From positions 1-18,671 of the forward strand of contig JALRBF010000026.1 of NCBI GenBank assembly GCA_023262365.1: a stretch of 18,671 nt of DNA, read 5' to 3'. The stretch comes from Burkholderiaceae bacterium (GTDB lineage Bacteria > Pseudomonadota > Gammaproteobacteria > Burkholderiales > Burkholderiaceae_C). A model generated the notes under the pieces. That model was given only the letters and a program-made list of their open reading frames with translations. It ran no database searches and was not told the DNA's origin. The position numbers and the translations under genes were made by a program. Numbering within the stretch: position 1 is the stretch's first letter; the number at the start of each line of letters is the position of its first letter. This document shows, piece after piece, positions 6,791 through 12,112 of the stretch.

Positions 6791-7421
6791 CCCGCCCCTT
6801 GCGCCACGCGCCCACCACGGCAATCAGCCCTGGCCCAATAATCAGCCCCCAAATCAGCCACTCCAGGTTGGCCTTAACCCAAGGCAAGTTACCAAAAGCG
6901 TAGCCCGCCACGCCCACACCCCACACCCACAGCGTGGCGCCCAGCACATTAAACGCGGTAAACCGCGCCCGGTTCATGTGCGCCACACCGGCCACAAACG
7001 GCGCAAACGTGCGCACAAAGGGTAAAAAACGCGCCAGCACAATGGTGATGGGGCCATAGCGCTCGTAAAACGCGTGGGCCTGGTCAAATGCCCGCCGGTT
7101 GAACCAGCGCGACTGCTCCCAGCCAAACACCCTGGGCCCAATCCAGCGCCCAATGTGGTAGTTGACCTGGTCCCCCACCACCGCGGCCACCCACATCAAG
7201 CCCAAAGCCAGTGGCAGACTTAACTCGCCCGTGCCGGCCAGTGCGCCCACCACAAACAGCAGCGAATCGCCAGGCAAAAACGGCATCACCACCAAGCCGG
7301 TTTCCACAAACACAATCAAAAACAACAGGGCGTAAACCCAAACGCCGTAGTCGCGCACCAATTGAATCAAATGCGCGTCCACATGCAAAATAAAATCCAC
7401 CAGCCACCAAATCACGTCCAT
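6756..7421 (-). CDS. DedA family inner-membrane protein
   Basis: A 221-residue membrane protein of the DedA/SNARE-associated family. Charged residues that are functionally important in E. coli YqjA/YghB are kept at nearly the same positions: Glu40 (VFVETGL), Asp52 (PGDSLLF), Arg131 and Arg137 (RFLPFVRTFAPFVAG). The family supports membrane homeostasis and is linked to undecaprenyl phosphate or phospholipid flipping and proton-dependent transport. The ATG at 7421 gives MDVIWWLVDFILH, matching the usual MDLIYFLIDFILH-type start; the ATG at 7430 would overlap the proposed -10 box. The gene is inserted on the opposite strand between amiC and mutL. Its last eleven codons overlap the end of amiC. 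Confidence 0.93.
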   Translation of the reverse strand: MDVIWWLVDFILHVDAHLIQLVRDYGVWVYALLFLIVFVETGLVVMPFLPGDSLLFVVGALAGTGELSLPLALGLMWVAAVVGDQVNYHIGRWIGPRVFGWEQSRWFNRRAFDQAHAFYERYGPITIVLARFLPFVRTFAPFVAGVAHMNRARFTAFNVLGATLWVWGVGVAGYAFGNLPWVKANLEWLIWGLIIGPGLIAVVGAWRKGRATAGARVPAGD

Positions 7422-7428
7422 GGGCTGC

Positions 7429-7434
7429 ATTATC
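7429..7434 (-). promoter_or_regulatory. putative -10 box of the dedA-like gene
   Basis: Minus-strand GATAAT (5/6 to consensus) ends seven bases before the ATG at 7421. It lies only 11 bp from the mutL -10 box, which points the other way, so the two promoters must overlap. Confidence 0.42.
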
Positions 7435-7445
7435 GCGGCGCTCCC

Positions 7446-7451
7446 TACAAT
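7446..7451 (+). promoter_or_regulatory. putative -10 box of mutL
   Basis: TACAAT (5/6 to consensus) ends seven bases before a GTG at 7459, predicting a transcript that begins at that GTG. Because dedA lies on the other strand upstream, mutL cannot be read through from amiC and needs its own promoter. The -35 region, which would fall in the first codons of dedA, is weak. Confidence 0.42.
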
Positions 7452-7458
7452 GGGCAGC

Positions 7459-9282
7459 GTGTCTGCTGCTCTTGCCCCCTCCCCGCGGCCCATTGCGCCG
7501 CTGCCCGATACCCTAATTAGCCAAATCGCGGCCGGGGAAGTCATTGAGCGCCCCGCCTCGGTGGTGCGCGAGCTGCTCGATAACGCCCGCGACGCCGGCG
7601 CCGACCGCATCGTGCTGCGCATGACCGGCGGCGGCGTGGGATTAATTGCGGCTGAAGACAACGGCCACGGCATGGCGCGCCGCGACCTGGCCTTGGCCCT
7701 GCAGCGCCACGCCACAAGCAAAATCGGCAGTTTGGCTGACCTTGAGTCGGTGCGCACCATGGGCTTTCGCGGCGAGGCCCTCGCGGCCATGGCCTCGGTG
7801 GCGCGGGTGGTCATTGACACCCATTGCCCCGGCGCAGACGACCACGGCTGGCAACTGAGCAACGAAACCGGCGAGCTCGCGCCCGTGGCCCGGTCGGTGG
7901 GCACCACGGTGGCGGTGCACGACTTGTTTGCCAACACCCCGGCTCGGCGCAAGTTTTTAAAGTCCGAAGGCACCGAGCTGGCGCACTGCGTGGAGGCGGT
8001 GCGCCGTCAGGCCCTGGCCAACCCCTCGGTGGCCTACGACGTGTGGCACAACGGCAAGCTGCTGCACCACTGGCGCGCGCAACCCGAACAGCCCGAGGCG
8101 CGCTGGCAAGATGTGCTGGGCCGCGCCTTCATGGAGCAGTCGCTACCGGTGCACGACGGCAACGGCCAAGGCTGGCAACTGCGCGGGCGACTGGGCCTGC
8201 CCGATGCCGCCCGCGCACGCACCGACGCCCAGTGGCTGTTTGTCAACGGCCGGCTGGTGCGCGACAAAACCATTGGCCACGCCCTGCGCGCGGCCTACGC
8301 CGACGTGCTGCACGGCCAGCGCCAACCCACCTATTTGCTGTACTTGGATGTGCCGCCCGAGTCGGTAGACGTCAACGTCCACCCGGCCAAGGCCGAGGTG
8401 CGGTTTCGTGACAGCCGTGGCCTGCACCACTGGATTCAGCACCTCGCCCAGACCGCGCTGGCAGCCCCGCGCGGCGGCCTGCCCACGCCAGCGGCCAGCC
8501 CCGCGCCGCCGGGTTCGGCCGCGCCCACCACGCGCGCGGCGCCGTGGCCGTCGGCTGCCCAAGCCGGGCTGGGCCTAAACCACCCCTTTGCCCACCCCTT
8601 TACCTACGCCGCGCCGCCGTTCAACCCGACGGCCACGGGACAAGCCCCGGCGGCGGTGGGCGAGCCAGCCGCCTCGCCCTTGGACACCAACGACGAATGG
8701 CCGCTGGGCCGCGCGCTGGCGCAGTTGCACGGCGTGTACCTGCTGGCCGAAAACCGCCACGGGCTGATACTGGTGGACATGCACGCCGCGCACGAGCGCA
8801 TCGTGTACGAGCAACTCAAAGCCGCGCACCATCTGCGCACCGGGCAACCCGCGCAACAACTGTTGGTGCCACAACCCTTTGTCGCCAGCGGCGTACAAGT
8901 GGCCACCGCGCAAAGCCACCAGGCCACTTTGCAACAACTGGGGCTGGAGCTGGACGCGTGGTCGCACGAACAACTGGTGGTGCGCAGCGTACCCGCGCCG
9001 CTGGTTCAAGCCGACGCCGTGGCCCTGGCCCGCAGCGTGCTTGACGAACTGGTGCAACACGACAGCGCCACGGTGCTGCAACGCGCCACCGACGATTTGC
9101 TGGCCACCATGGCTTGCCACGCCGCGGTGCGCGCCAACCGCTTGCTGACGCTGCAAGAAATGAACGCCCTGCTGCGCCAAATGGAGCAAACCGAGCGCGC
9201 CGACCAATGCAACCACGGGCGCCCCACGTGGCGCCAGCTCAGCATGGCCGAGCTAGACAAACTGTTTTTACGCGGCCGCTGA
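7459..9282 (+). CDS. mutL: DNA mismatch repair protein MutL
   Basis: About 607 residues. The GHKL ATPase domain shows the catalytic Glu38 and Asn42 (VVRELLDNARDAGA), EDNGHGM, QRHATSKI and MGFRGEALAAMASV, then GTTVAVHDLFANTPARRKFLK and VDVNVHPAKAEVRF. A Pro/Ala-rich linker covers about residues 335-410. The C-terminal dimerisation domain carries DMHAAHERIVYE (about 440-451), fitting the endonuclease motif DQHA(x)2E(x)4E, plus ACHAAVRAN (about 552-560) and QCNHGRPTW (about 583-591). A nicking MutL as in Neisseria is therefore expected, unlike E. coli MutL. The GTG at 7459 was chosen because the ATG at 7450 overlaps the -10 box and the frame's first ATG (7420) overlaps dedA. It leads the run mutL-MFS-miaA-ABC module. 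Confidence 0.95.
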   Translation: MSAALAPSPRPIAPLPDTLISQIAAGEVIERPASVVRELLDNARDAGADRIVLRMTGGGVGLIAAEDNGHGMARRDLALALQRHATSKIGSLADLESVRTMGFRGEALAAMASVARVVIDTHCPGADDHGWQLSNETGELAPVARSVGTTVAVHDLFANTPARRKFLKSEGTELAHCVEAVRRQALANPSVAYDVWHNGKLLHHWRAQPEQPEARWQDVLGRAFMEQSLPVHDGNGQGWQLRGRLGLPDAARARTDAQWLFVNGRLVRDKTIGHALRAAYADVLHGQRQPTYLLYLDVPPESVDVNVHPAKAEVRFRDSRGLHHWIQHLAQTALAAPRGGLPTPAASPAPPGSAAPTTRAAPWPSAAQAGLGLNHPFAHPFTYAAPPFNPTATGQAPAAVGEPAASPLDTNDEWPLGRALAQLHGVYLLAENRHGLILVDMHAAHERIVYEQLKAAHHLRTGQPAQQLLVPQPFVASGVQVATAQSHQATLQQLGLELDAWSHEQLVVRSVPAPLVQADAVALARSVLDELVQHDSATVLQRATDDLLATMACHAAVRANRLLTLQEMNALLRQMEQTERADQCNHGRPTWRQLSMAELDKLFLRGR

Positions 9283-9286
9283 CGCC

Positions 9287-10513
9287 ATGCCCCACGCCTT
9301 GGCCAGCCACGTCGCCCCACCCCGCATGTCAACGGCCCGGGTGGTGCTTTTGCTCTCGCTCATGATGGGGCTGCAGCCCGTGGCAACCGACCTGTACTTG
9401 CCGGCCCTGCCCGCCATCTCACGCACCTTGGGGGCCAGCGCCGGCACGGCGCAACTTACCCTCACCGCCATGCTGCTGGCGTTTGGCTTGTCGCAACTGC
9501 TCTGGGGGCCATTGTCCGACCGCCTGGGTCGCCGCCCCATGCTGTTGCTGGGCTTGGCTCTGTTCACGCTGGCGGGGGTCTACGGCGCGTGGGTTAACAC
9601 CATGCAGCAACTTATTGTGGCCCGCTGCCTGCAAGGCATTGGTATGGGTGCGGTGGTGGTGTGTGGCCGTGCCCTCATTCGCGACTTGTACGACCACGAA
9701 GAGGGCGCGCGCATCATGAGTCAGGGCCTCACCGGGTTGGGGCTGGTGGCTTGCCTCAGCCCGCCTTTGGGCGGCTTGATCGCGCAGTATTTGGGCTGGC
9801 ATGTCACGCTGCTGACGCTGGCCGTGTTTGCCGCCCTTACCCTGGTCTTGGTGGCCACGCGCTTTAACGAAACGCTCGCCGCGCCCAACCCCCACGCCCT
9901 TGCGCTGGGCCCCATGGCGCGCAGCTGTTGGCACATTCTGCGTCATCGGCATTTTCAGGTGTACGCCATGCTCAGCACCGCCACCTACGGCGGGTTGTTC
10001 ACGTTTTTGGTTGCCTCGCCCTTTGTCTTCATTCAAGTCTATGGCTTAAGCCCAGCCGAGTTTGGCCTGGCCATGTTGTTTCAATCGGTCAGCTACACCG
10101 GCGGCACGTTTTTGTGTCGCCGCTTGCTCAAGCGCCTCGGCGTGCACCGCACGCTCAAGGTGGGTGGCGTGCTTAGCCTTGCCTCGGGCGTGGCGCTGGT
10201 GGCTTTTTCGCTGTTGCGCTGGCATACCGTCACCACCGTATTGGCGTGCTACTTTGGCTTCATCGTTGCGCACGGCATTCATCAACCGTGCGCCCAGTCG
10301 GGCGCGGTGGCCCCGTTTGCACAAGCCGCAGGCACGGCCTCGGCGCTGGCTGGCTGCCTGATGATGGTGGTGGCCTTCATCAACGGCTGGTGGCTGGGTG
10401 CGCACCTCGACGGCAACGAGCGCGCGCTGACCTTTGGCATTGGCTTTTGGAGCGTGGTCTTGGCCGTACTGGCCTGGGGCCCGGTGCAGCGCCTGGGGCG
10501 CGCCACGCCATGA
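9287..10513 (+). CDS. Bcr/CflA-type MFS efflux transporter
   Basis: A 408-residue protein with about twelve membrane helices. The DHA1 Bcr/CflA signature [11 protein letters not shown] (Asp35) lies in the first helix and motif [12 protein letters not shown], at residues 74-84, followed by [21 protein letters not shown]. The family exports drugs or metabolites by proton antiport; the substrate here is unknown. The start at 9287 lies four bases after the mutL stop. An in-frame ATG at 9326 ([15 protein letters not shown]) would also leave a complete transporter and could be the real start. The stop overlaps the miaA ATG in an ATGA, so translation is probably coupled. Confidence 0.92.
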
Positions 10514-11460
10514 GCGTGTTGGTGTTGGCGGGCCCCACAGCCAGCGGTAAGAGCCACTGGGCACTGCAACTTGCCCAGCACTTTAACGCCGAAATCATCA
10601 GCATGGACTCGGCCTTGGTGTACCAAGGTATGGACATTGGCACCGCCAAACCCACCCTGTAAGAGCAGGTGCAGGTGCCGCACCATGGACTGGACATGGT
10701 GCCCCCCAGCCAAAGCTACAGCGCGGCGCGGTTTGCCGCGGACGCGCAACTGGCGTACGACGCCATCCGTGCCCGGGGCAAACGGGTGTTGGTGGTGGGC
10801 GGCACCATGCTGTACCACCGCGCTTGGTTGCAAGGTCTGCATCCCTTGCCTGCAGCCGACCCCGCGTGGCGCCAAGCCATGGCTGAGCGCGCCCAAGCCG
10901 TGGGCTGGCCCGCGCTGCACGCCGAACTGGCCCGAGTTGACCCTGCCACTGCCACGCGCCTGGCCCCGCACGACAGCCAGCGCATTCAACGCGCCCTTGA
11001 GGTGTGGCACGTCAGCGGCAAACCGCTGTCGCAGTGGCACGCCAGCCCACCGCCGGCAAGCCAAGCCCCGCGCGCCACGCTGGTCTCGCTCGAGCCCAGC
11101 GCCAAACCTTGGTTGCTGCAACGCATTGAGGCACGCCTGCACACCATGCTCGAGCAAGGCGTGGCACGCGAGATGGCGCGGCTGATGGAAACGCCGGGGC
11201 TGCACGCGCAGCTGCCAGCCATGCGCTGCGTGGGCTACCGCCAAGCCTGGCAACTGCTGGCCGAACACGGCCCATGGAGACCGAAGGTTCAAGCGCAGTG
11301 GCTTGCGCTAACTGCCGTGGCCACGCGCCAACTGGCCAAGCGCCAACTCACCTGGTTACGCAGCATGCCCACGCGCCACGTGGTGCACGCCGACGCCCCG
11401 GACGTGGCCGAACAATTGCTGGCGCTGGCCACAACGCACTGGCGTACCTGCCATGCTTGA
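10510..11460 (+). pseudogene. miaA: tRNA dimethylallyltransferase MiaA with internal TAA
   Basis: MiaA transfers dimethylallyl to A37 of UNN-decoding tRNAs. Codons 1-50 carry the P-loop GPTASGKS (residues 8-15), [19 protein letters not shown] and then an in-frame TAA (codon 51, 10660-10662). Translation of the same frame continues without shift: EQVQVPHH, SYSAARFAADA, VGGTMLYHRAWLQGL, SQRIQRALEV, LPAMRCVGYRQAW and TRQLAKRQLTWLR, to a TGA at 11458. Read through, it would be 316 residues, the family length. The TAA falls where E. coli MiaA has Glu (GTAKPNAEELL), so one GAA-to-TAA change would explain it. Some usually conserved residues differ (DP to PP before SQSYSA; MLYF to MLYH). It starts in an ATGA overlap with the MFS gene and ends overlapping the ABC ATPase by 8 bp. 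A sequencing or assembly error remains possible. Confidence 0.88.
10669..11460 (+). other. possible reinitiated MiaA C-terminal fragment
   Basis: Six bases after the miaA TAA there is an in-frame GTG (10669), and a second at 10675, preceded by AAGAG at 10661-10665. A ribosome stopping at the TAA could restart here and make a fragment of about 260 residues that has the tRNA-binding and prenyl-acceptor regions but lacks the P-loop. It would not be a MiaA enzyme alone, but restarting would keep translation running into the downstream ABC genes. This is inference from position and spacing. Confidence 0.25.
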
Positions 11461-12112
11461 GGTGCGCGACTTGGCCCACGGCTACCCCGGCCAGCCGGTG
11501 TTTCGCGACGTCTCGCTCACCTTGGAACCGGGACAGTCCGTGGCCATTGTGGGCGCCTCGGGGGTAGGCAAATCCACCCTGCTGCAGTGCCTAGCGGGCT
11601 TGGAGCGCTGGCAAAACGGTCAGATCAACGCCAACGGCGTCAACTTGGGGACGCTGGACGATGAGGCCCGCGCACGCTGGCGTCGCCAGTACGTAGGCTT
11701 TGTGTTTCAAGCGTTTCACCTGCTGCCCTACCTTTCGGTATTTGACAACGTGCACCTGCCCCTGATGCTGCTGCAGCGGCCCAACCGCGCCCACGCGCAG
11801 GCCATGCTTGAGGCCGTTGGCCTGCAGGCCTTGGGCCAGCGGTTACCCGAGCAGCTCTCGGGCGGTCAAATGCAACGCGCGGCCATTGCCCGCGCCCTGG
11901 TGCACCAACCGCCGCTGCTGCTGGCCGACGAGCCCACCGGCAACCTTGACCCCGCGCACGCCGCCGAGGTGCTTGAGTTGCTGCTCGAGCAAAGCGCACG
12001 CCACGGCGCCTCGCTGGTGCTGGTAACCCACAACCTGCAAGCCGCGCAACAAACCCATCGCGTGCTTGAACTCACGCCCACGGGGCTGCGGCCATGGTGC
12101 GTGTCGTCCTAG
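11453..12112 (+). CDS. ABC ATPase, LolD/MacB type (AttE-like)
   Basis: A 219-residue ATPase with Walker A GASGVGKS (34-41), Q-loop Gln86 (VFQAFHLLPYLSVFDNV), signature LSGGQMQR (135-142), Walker B LLLADE (155-160) with TGNLD, and H-loop His193 (VTHN). The FHLLPYLSVFDNV and TGNLD segments place it with ATPases that drive FtsX-fold permeases (LolD, MacB, FtsE). The next gene is a single two-domain FtsX permease and then a CrtC/AttH-like protein, the arrangement named AttEFGH in some annotations, so true LolD (which pairs with LolC/E) is less likely. It overlaps miaA by 8 bp and the permease by 19 bp. Confidence 0.92.
   Translation: MLEVRDLAHGYPGQPVFRDVSLTLEPGQSVAIVGASGVGKSTLLQCLAGLERWQNGQINANGVNLGTLDDEARARWRRQYVGFVFQAFHLLPYLSVFDNVHLPLMLLQRPNRAHAQAMLEAVGLQALGQRLPEQLSGGQMQRAAIARALVHQPPLLLADEPTGNLDPAHAAEVLELLLEQSARHGASLVLVTHNLQAAQQTHRVLELTPTGLRPWCVSS

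Follow-up and report, generated by a model that had tools for sequence, protein, structure and literature searches.

An in-frame stop at codon 51 of an otherwise complete miaA gene in a Burkholderiaceae assembly: recent private null allele or sequence error

The DNA analyzed here (18,671 bases from an uncultured bacterium, hereafter the window) carries a gene for the tRNA (adenosine(37)-N6)-dimethylallyltransferase MiaA (TIGR00174, PF01715; E. coli structures 2zm5, 2zxu, and 3foz) which differs from the known family by an in-frame stop at codon 51. This raises the question of whether the organism has lost MiaA, bypasses the stop, or has an intact gene that was misrepresented in the assembly. 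The window is contig C369 of genome G000, which comprises 1.90 Mb in 376 contigs and is 90.67% complete and 2.84% contaminated. An earlier note on this DNA had named a recent nonsense mutation, a sequence error, and low-level readthrough as the options, and we judge this to be the right set.

The interrupted miaA frame

Translation of positions 10510 to 11460 of the forward strand yielded 50 sense codons, TAA, 265 sense codons, and a terminal TGA (Table 1). The 50-residue piece matched the NCBIfam model TIGR00174 (miaA) at positions 1-47 with an E value of 1.8e-18, and the 265-residue piece matched it at positions 52-286 (E value 1.4e-55, 188.6 bits), the latter alone exceeding the cut-off of 148.65. 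Together the two pieces, lying in a single frame, cover almost all of the family model, and a six-frame search likewise gave a miaA match above the TIGR00174 cut-off. A single uninterrupted frame joining the P-loop to the rest of MiaA is absent in the window because of the TAA at 10660-10662, and no second lesion was found when the whole frame was translated. Judged from these matches, an open, family-matching frame on either side of one stop is not a product of chance. The description in the earlier note of a TAA at codon 51 of an otherwise complete miaA is thus confirmed in its frame, its stop, and the family matches on both sides. The gene is also single-copy in this assembly: the search for a second miaA recommended in that note found none in the whole G000 genome, and the sole match is the one reported with "1 TAA" inside. 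The gene order is mutL, Bcr/CflA-type transporter gene, miaA, and ABC ATPase gene.

Table 1. Features of the miaA region of the window
Feature	Position	Strand	Basis and remarks
mutL, intact	7420..9282	+	NF000949, 765.6 bits against a cut-off of 750
Bcr/CflA-type MFS transporter gene	9287..10513	+	TIGR00710 above cut-off; 3′ end overlaps miaA start (coordinates)
miaA frame	10510..11460	+	316 codons before terminal TGA, one of them TAA; translation, TIGR00174 and PF01715 matches
N-terminal 50 residues including P-loop (GPTASGKS)	10510..10659	+	TIGR00174 positions 1-47; protein-database entry P0121
In-frame TAA, codon 51	10660..10662	+	Read from the sequence; not in P0001, P0002, P0003
Remaining 265 MiaA codons	10663..11457	+	TIGR00174 positions 52-286, PF01715
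ORF from a conjectural GTG restart 6 bases 3′ of the stop	10669..11460	+	ORF list; product would be without P-loop
ABC transporter ATPase gene	11453..12112	+	PF00005; 5′ end overlaps miaA end (coordinates)

Codon 51 aligns with a Glu of E. coli MiaA (structure 2zm5), and the 165 fetched proteins that share the GTAKP motif had A (84), Q (25), E (25), or another residue (the rest) at this position; both results agree with the earlier placement of the stop at a variable position. At position 50, where the window encodes Leu, the same residue was present in 24 of the 165 proteins and in 2 of the 80 loci having the motif, and by these counts it is an ordinary MiaA residue. As written, the stop would leave most of the enzyme untranslated, and ribosomes obeying the TAA without restarting would make only a 50-residue P-loop peptide.

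Distribution of the lesion among relatives

The nearest protein, P0001, found among the best 120 of 7,999 scored proteins, has 316 residues, is unbroken, and shares 98% identity with the downstream piece. P0002 (90% identical) and P0003 (78% identical) also have 316 residues and are unbroken, so that the comparison with close relatives proposed in the earlier note returned an intact miaA in all three. They represent clusters of 20 (P0001), 8 (P0002), and 40 (P0003) members, of which the representatives alone were compared; one of the 20 may be the fragment from the window itself. P0001 departs from the window at codons 50, 51, 204, 212, 227, and 257 of 316, and at codons 50, 51, 227, and 257 it is the same as P0002. 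The adjacent differences at codons 50 and 51 were considered as a mark of error and dismissed, since Leu is commonly found at position 50 of MiaA proteins.

With the 50-residue piece as query, a search that takes in short proteins only returned 81 entries. The sole identical one (P0121) derives from the window's own 18,671-base contig, and the next entry by score was 71% identical. The entry with the highest identity among the non-identical ones, P0198 (87% over 60% of the query), was rejected as a second truncated case; it extends beyond codon 51 and belongs to a different lineage. The best 80 of 576 confirmed miaA loci of named genomes, a set that may omit records very near the window, were from Comamonadaceae and allied Burkholderiales, with 48-57% identity. 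The in-frame stop was not present in any relative examined (P0001 to P0003, the genus genomes, and the named-genome loci), and as far as these searches reach it is private. A disabling change lacking in close relatives, with the truncated product in one record, is the pattern of a private null allele; an in-frame stop kept in relatives, as in recoded or readthrough genes, was not found among them.

Within the genus, miaA was matched in 7 of 10 genomes, five of them unbroken, G000 with the stop, and G003 with a frameshifting 20-bp deletion (L143 near 8808, G003:C163). G003 is closest to the window in this set (MutL 81%, FtsX-type permease 74%), and two lesions among seven genomes would fit recurrent loss of miaA across the clade by separate lesions in sister species. 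However, rplP of G003 is likewise disrupted, by a 22-bp deletion that breaks its frame (L182:2614-3005, G003:C218), and the unbroken P0003 is nearly identical to the miaA product of G003 (identical at 164 of the 166 N-terminal and 143 of the 144 C-terminal residues). A cell lacking normal L16 would be expected to fare poorly, and we therefore read both G003 deletions as assembly faults and set recurrent loss aside as extremely unlikely. A broader proposal takes the stop as genuine and as one instance of miaA being lost repeatedly, perhaps under selection, in an environmental clade, much as within one patient's E. coli; natural populations would then be mixed for i6A37. This too is very unlikely. 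The three genus genomes without a miaA match are uninformative and were not used as evidence of loss: in G002 the mutL match reaches base 1 of the contig, in G005 1,277 bases are left beyond mutL whereas the miaA match of the closed genome G001 starts about 1,290 bases beyond it, and in G009 neither miaA nor mutL was matched. The like size of the two G003 deletions also suggests an assembly artefact.

In the wider family, 288 of 299 genomes gave a miaA match, and the 11 others have 190-640 contigs. No stop was present inside these matches, among the matches listed. The search was repeated for twelve genomes in which it had given either a weak match or two matches. One miaA frame had been reported as two matches in five (G104, G146, G175, G187, and G320), a full match was accompanied by a weak second in G142 and G221, the pieces lay on two contigs in G172 and G161, and G129 had a contig-edge piece. 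In the one-contig genome G240 the miaA frame changes partway (L268:1950-2430), and in G155 an N gap surrounded by repeated gene sequence interrupts the gene (L273:1250-1600, G155:C188), a scaffold fault. When 132 loci were scanned with P0001, 131 matched, 118 of them in a single frame without a stop. The 13 others were L054, L063, and L098 from named genomes, with the natural end only (position 312), L024 from G003, L268 and L280 from G240, L273 and L277 from G155, and the partial matches L274, L275, L276, L282, and L285.

Selection, assembly quality, and tRNA features

Compared with the sister species G003, miaA had a dN/dS of 0.02 before the stop and 0.07 between the stop and the place of the G003 deletion. 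The C-terminal part gave 0.22, and this value alone is slightly higher than those of mutL, transporter, ABC ATPase, FtsX, and amidase nearby (0.08-0.18); with strongly diverged synonymous sites between the two genomes, all these values are rough. They indicate that purifying selection is present on both sides of the stop. No measurable decay of the window's miaA beyond the stop was found by reading through the frame or by dN/dS, and such decay is expected only if the loss is old. The earlier note had seen in the altered DP and MLYF positions a hint, though not a decisive one, that constraint was relaxed. This was not supported: P0001, P0002, and P0003, all intact, have the identical MLYHRAW stretch, and P0001 and P0003 also have the identical LDMVPPSQSYSA stretch. 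Since they are unchanged in intact relatives, these motifs are features of the lineage and not decay.

As a baseline for the soundness of the assembly, ORFs taken from a 1.2-Mb portion of the closed genome G001 were matched to 41 G000 contigs (211 kb, including the window) and 21 G003 contigs (196 kb). In G000, 9 of 78 loci were flagged, and on hand check four proved to be antisense to uvrA, two to lie before a gene start, one to be an intact hisE, and one (L157) to be antisense to a long frame, leaving miaA alone as broken. In G003, 4 of 66 loci were flagged, of which clpX and L175 have natural ends, so that miaA and rplP remained as broken. G000 ORFs against G003 gave 8 flags among 34 loci and G003 ORFs against G000 gave 6 among 30; apart from miaA, every flag was explained by an ORF in the antisense strand or another frame, a natural end, or an extended start. 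The remaining matched gene loci on the 18.7-kb window contig were unbroken. As the window was picked for its lesion, its miaA was excluded from any error rate, and because the sample is small, a low consensus-error rate is still compatible with this baseline. The clpX frame of the closed G001 (L191:14649-16199) continues past the usual end with an unrelated-looking tail, and that of G003 stops there.

A MiaB-family match was present in all 10 genus genomes, in nine of them above the cut-off. In G000, the miaB search called for by the earlier note located the gene as two contig-end pieces, on C1 (L287) and C2 (L163), which overlap with 85 identical bp followed by a stretch in which 64 of 82 positions agree. 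The simplest reading of this overlap is that two related organisms are present in the G000 bin, which on this evidence appears to be mixed.

The motif A36-A37-A38 is a recognition feature of MiaA. It is kept in all five of the UNN-reading tRNAs found in G000 (Phe, Ser-CGA, Tyr, Leu-CAA, and Cys), and three other G000 tRNAs that were inspected lack A36. The retained motif counts against a loss of MiaA, yet a recent loss would leave it in place too. No TTA anticodon was found among the 25 tRNA genes detected in G000, an incomplete tRNA set.

Weighing the explanations

A bypass of the stop, by readthrough or by a restart at the GTG at 10669 with the two pieces cooperating, would leave some MiaA activity. 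An in-frame GTG six bases after the stop and purifying selection on both halves speak for it, but the stop is absent from the relatives examined and so is no kept signal, no TTA-anticodon tRNA was among the 25 of the incomplete set, a restarted product would be without the P-loop, and the selection signal is accounted for by the recency of the stop. We regard bypass as very unlikely. There remain a real, very recent private nonsense (null) allele in one strain, to which we give a little less than an even chance, and a consensus or assembly error in a fragmented metagenome-type assembly, from an organism that has an intact MiaA and makes i6A37, which we hold nearly as probable; the null allele is only marginally ahead. 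For an error speak the occurrence of the truncated product in one record next to a full-length, 98% identical protein that stands for 20 members, the 376 contigs of G000 with miaB ends suggesting that related sequences were assembled together, the faults of the sister assembly G003 itself, and the lack of decay beyond the stop. Against it stand the finding of no other broken gene in the G000 sample after hand check and the neighbouring difference at codon 50, an ordinary residue and no mark of error. The real allele is favoured because its neighbours are sound, the gene is dispensable in E. coli, and private miaA mutations occur in nature; it is disfavoured because it is known from one contig only, the bin is apparently mixed, and the gene has not decayed beyond the stop.

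Both main readings, a one-off recent knockout and a sequence error, are of ordinary, known kinds. Gene-breaking errors in draft assemblies resemble the present case as isolated breaks with intact relatives, whereas the break in the window is a stop of the substitution type and not an indel. One paper on such errors (PMC12007338) reportedly concerns long-read assemblies. As for knockouts, one study describes growth of an E. coli miaA deletion strain, so that miaA is dispensable there (PMC9303304). In the E. coli of one patient, three independent miaA events, an SNP, an insertion, and a large deletion, are described in three isolates in another (PMC7845604). These are likewise isolated mutations among bacteria that otherwise retain miaA; they were seen in sequenced isolates, whereas the stop in the window is known from an assembly alone. 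A literature search returned no report of the window's miaA lesion.

Returning to the null allele, this reading infers that the base is real and the pieces are non-functional. Translation would end after 50 residues, and neither the P-loop peptide nor any restarted remainder would be expected to work. With MiaA absent, i6A37 and ms2i6A37 would be missing from the tRNAs reading UNN codons. Mild harm, or a benefit that does not last, would keep the allele rare, and the lineage retains the gene.

Two cautions follow: when a fragmented assembly shows a single stop in a conserved gene, the loss of a tRNA modification should not be concluded from it, and unrelated faults in two sister assemblies can mimic convergent gene loss. 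If the stop were confirmed, a wild strain without i6A37 would be expected to live alongside kin in which miaA is intact.
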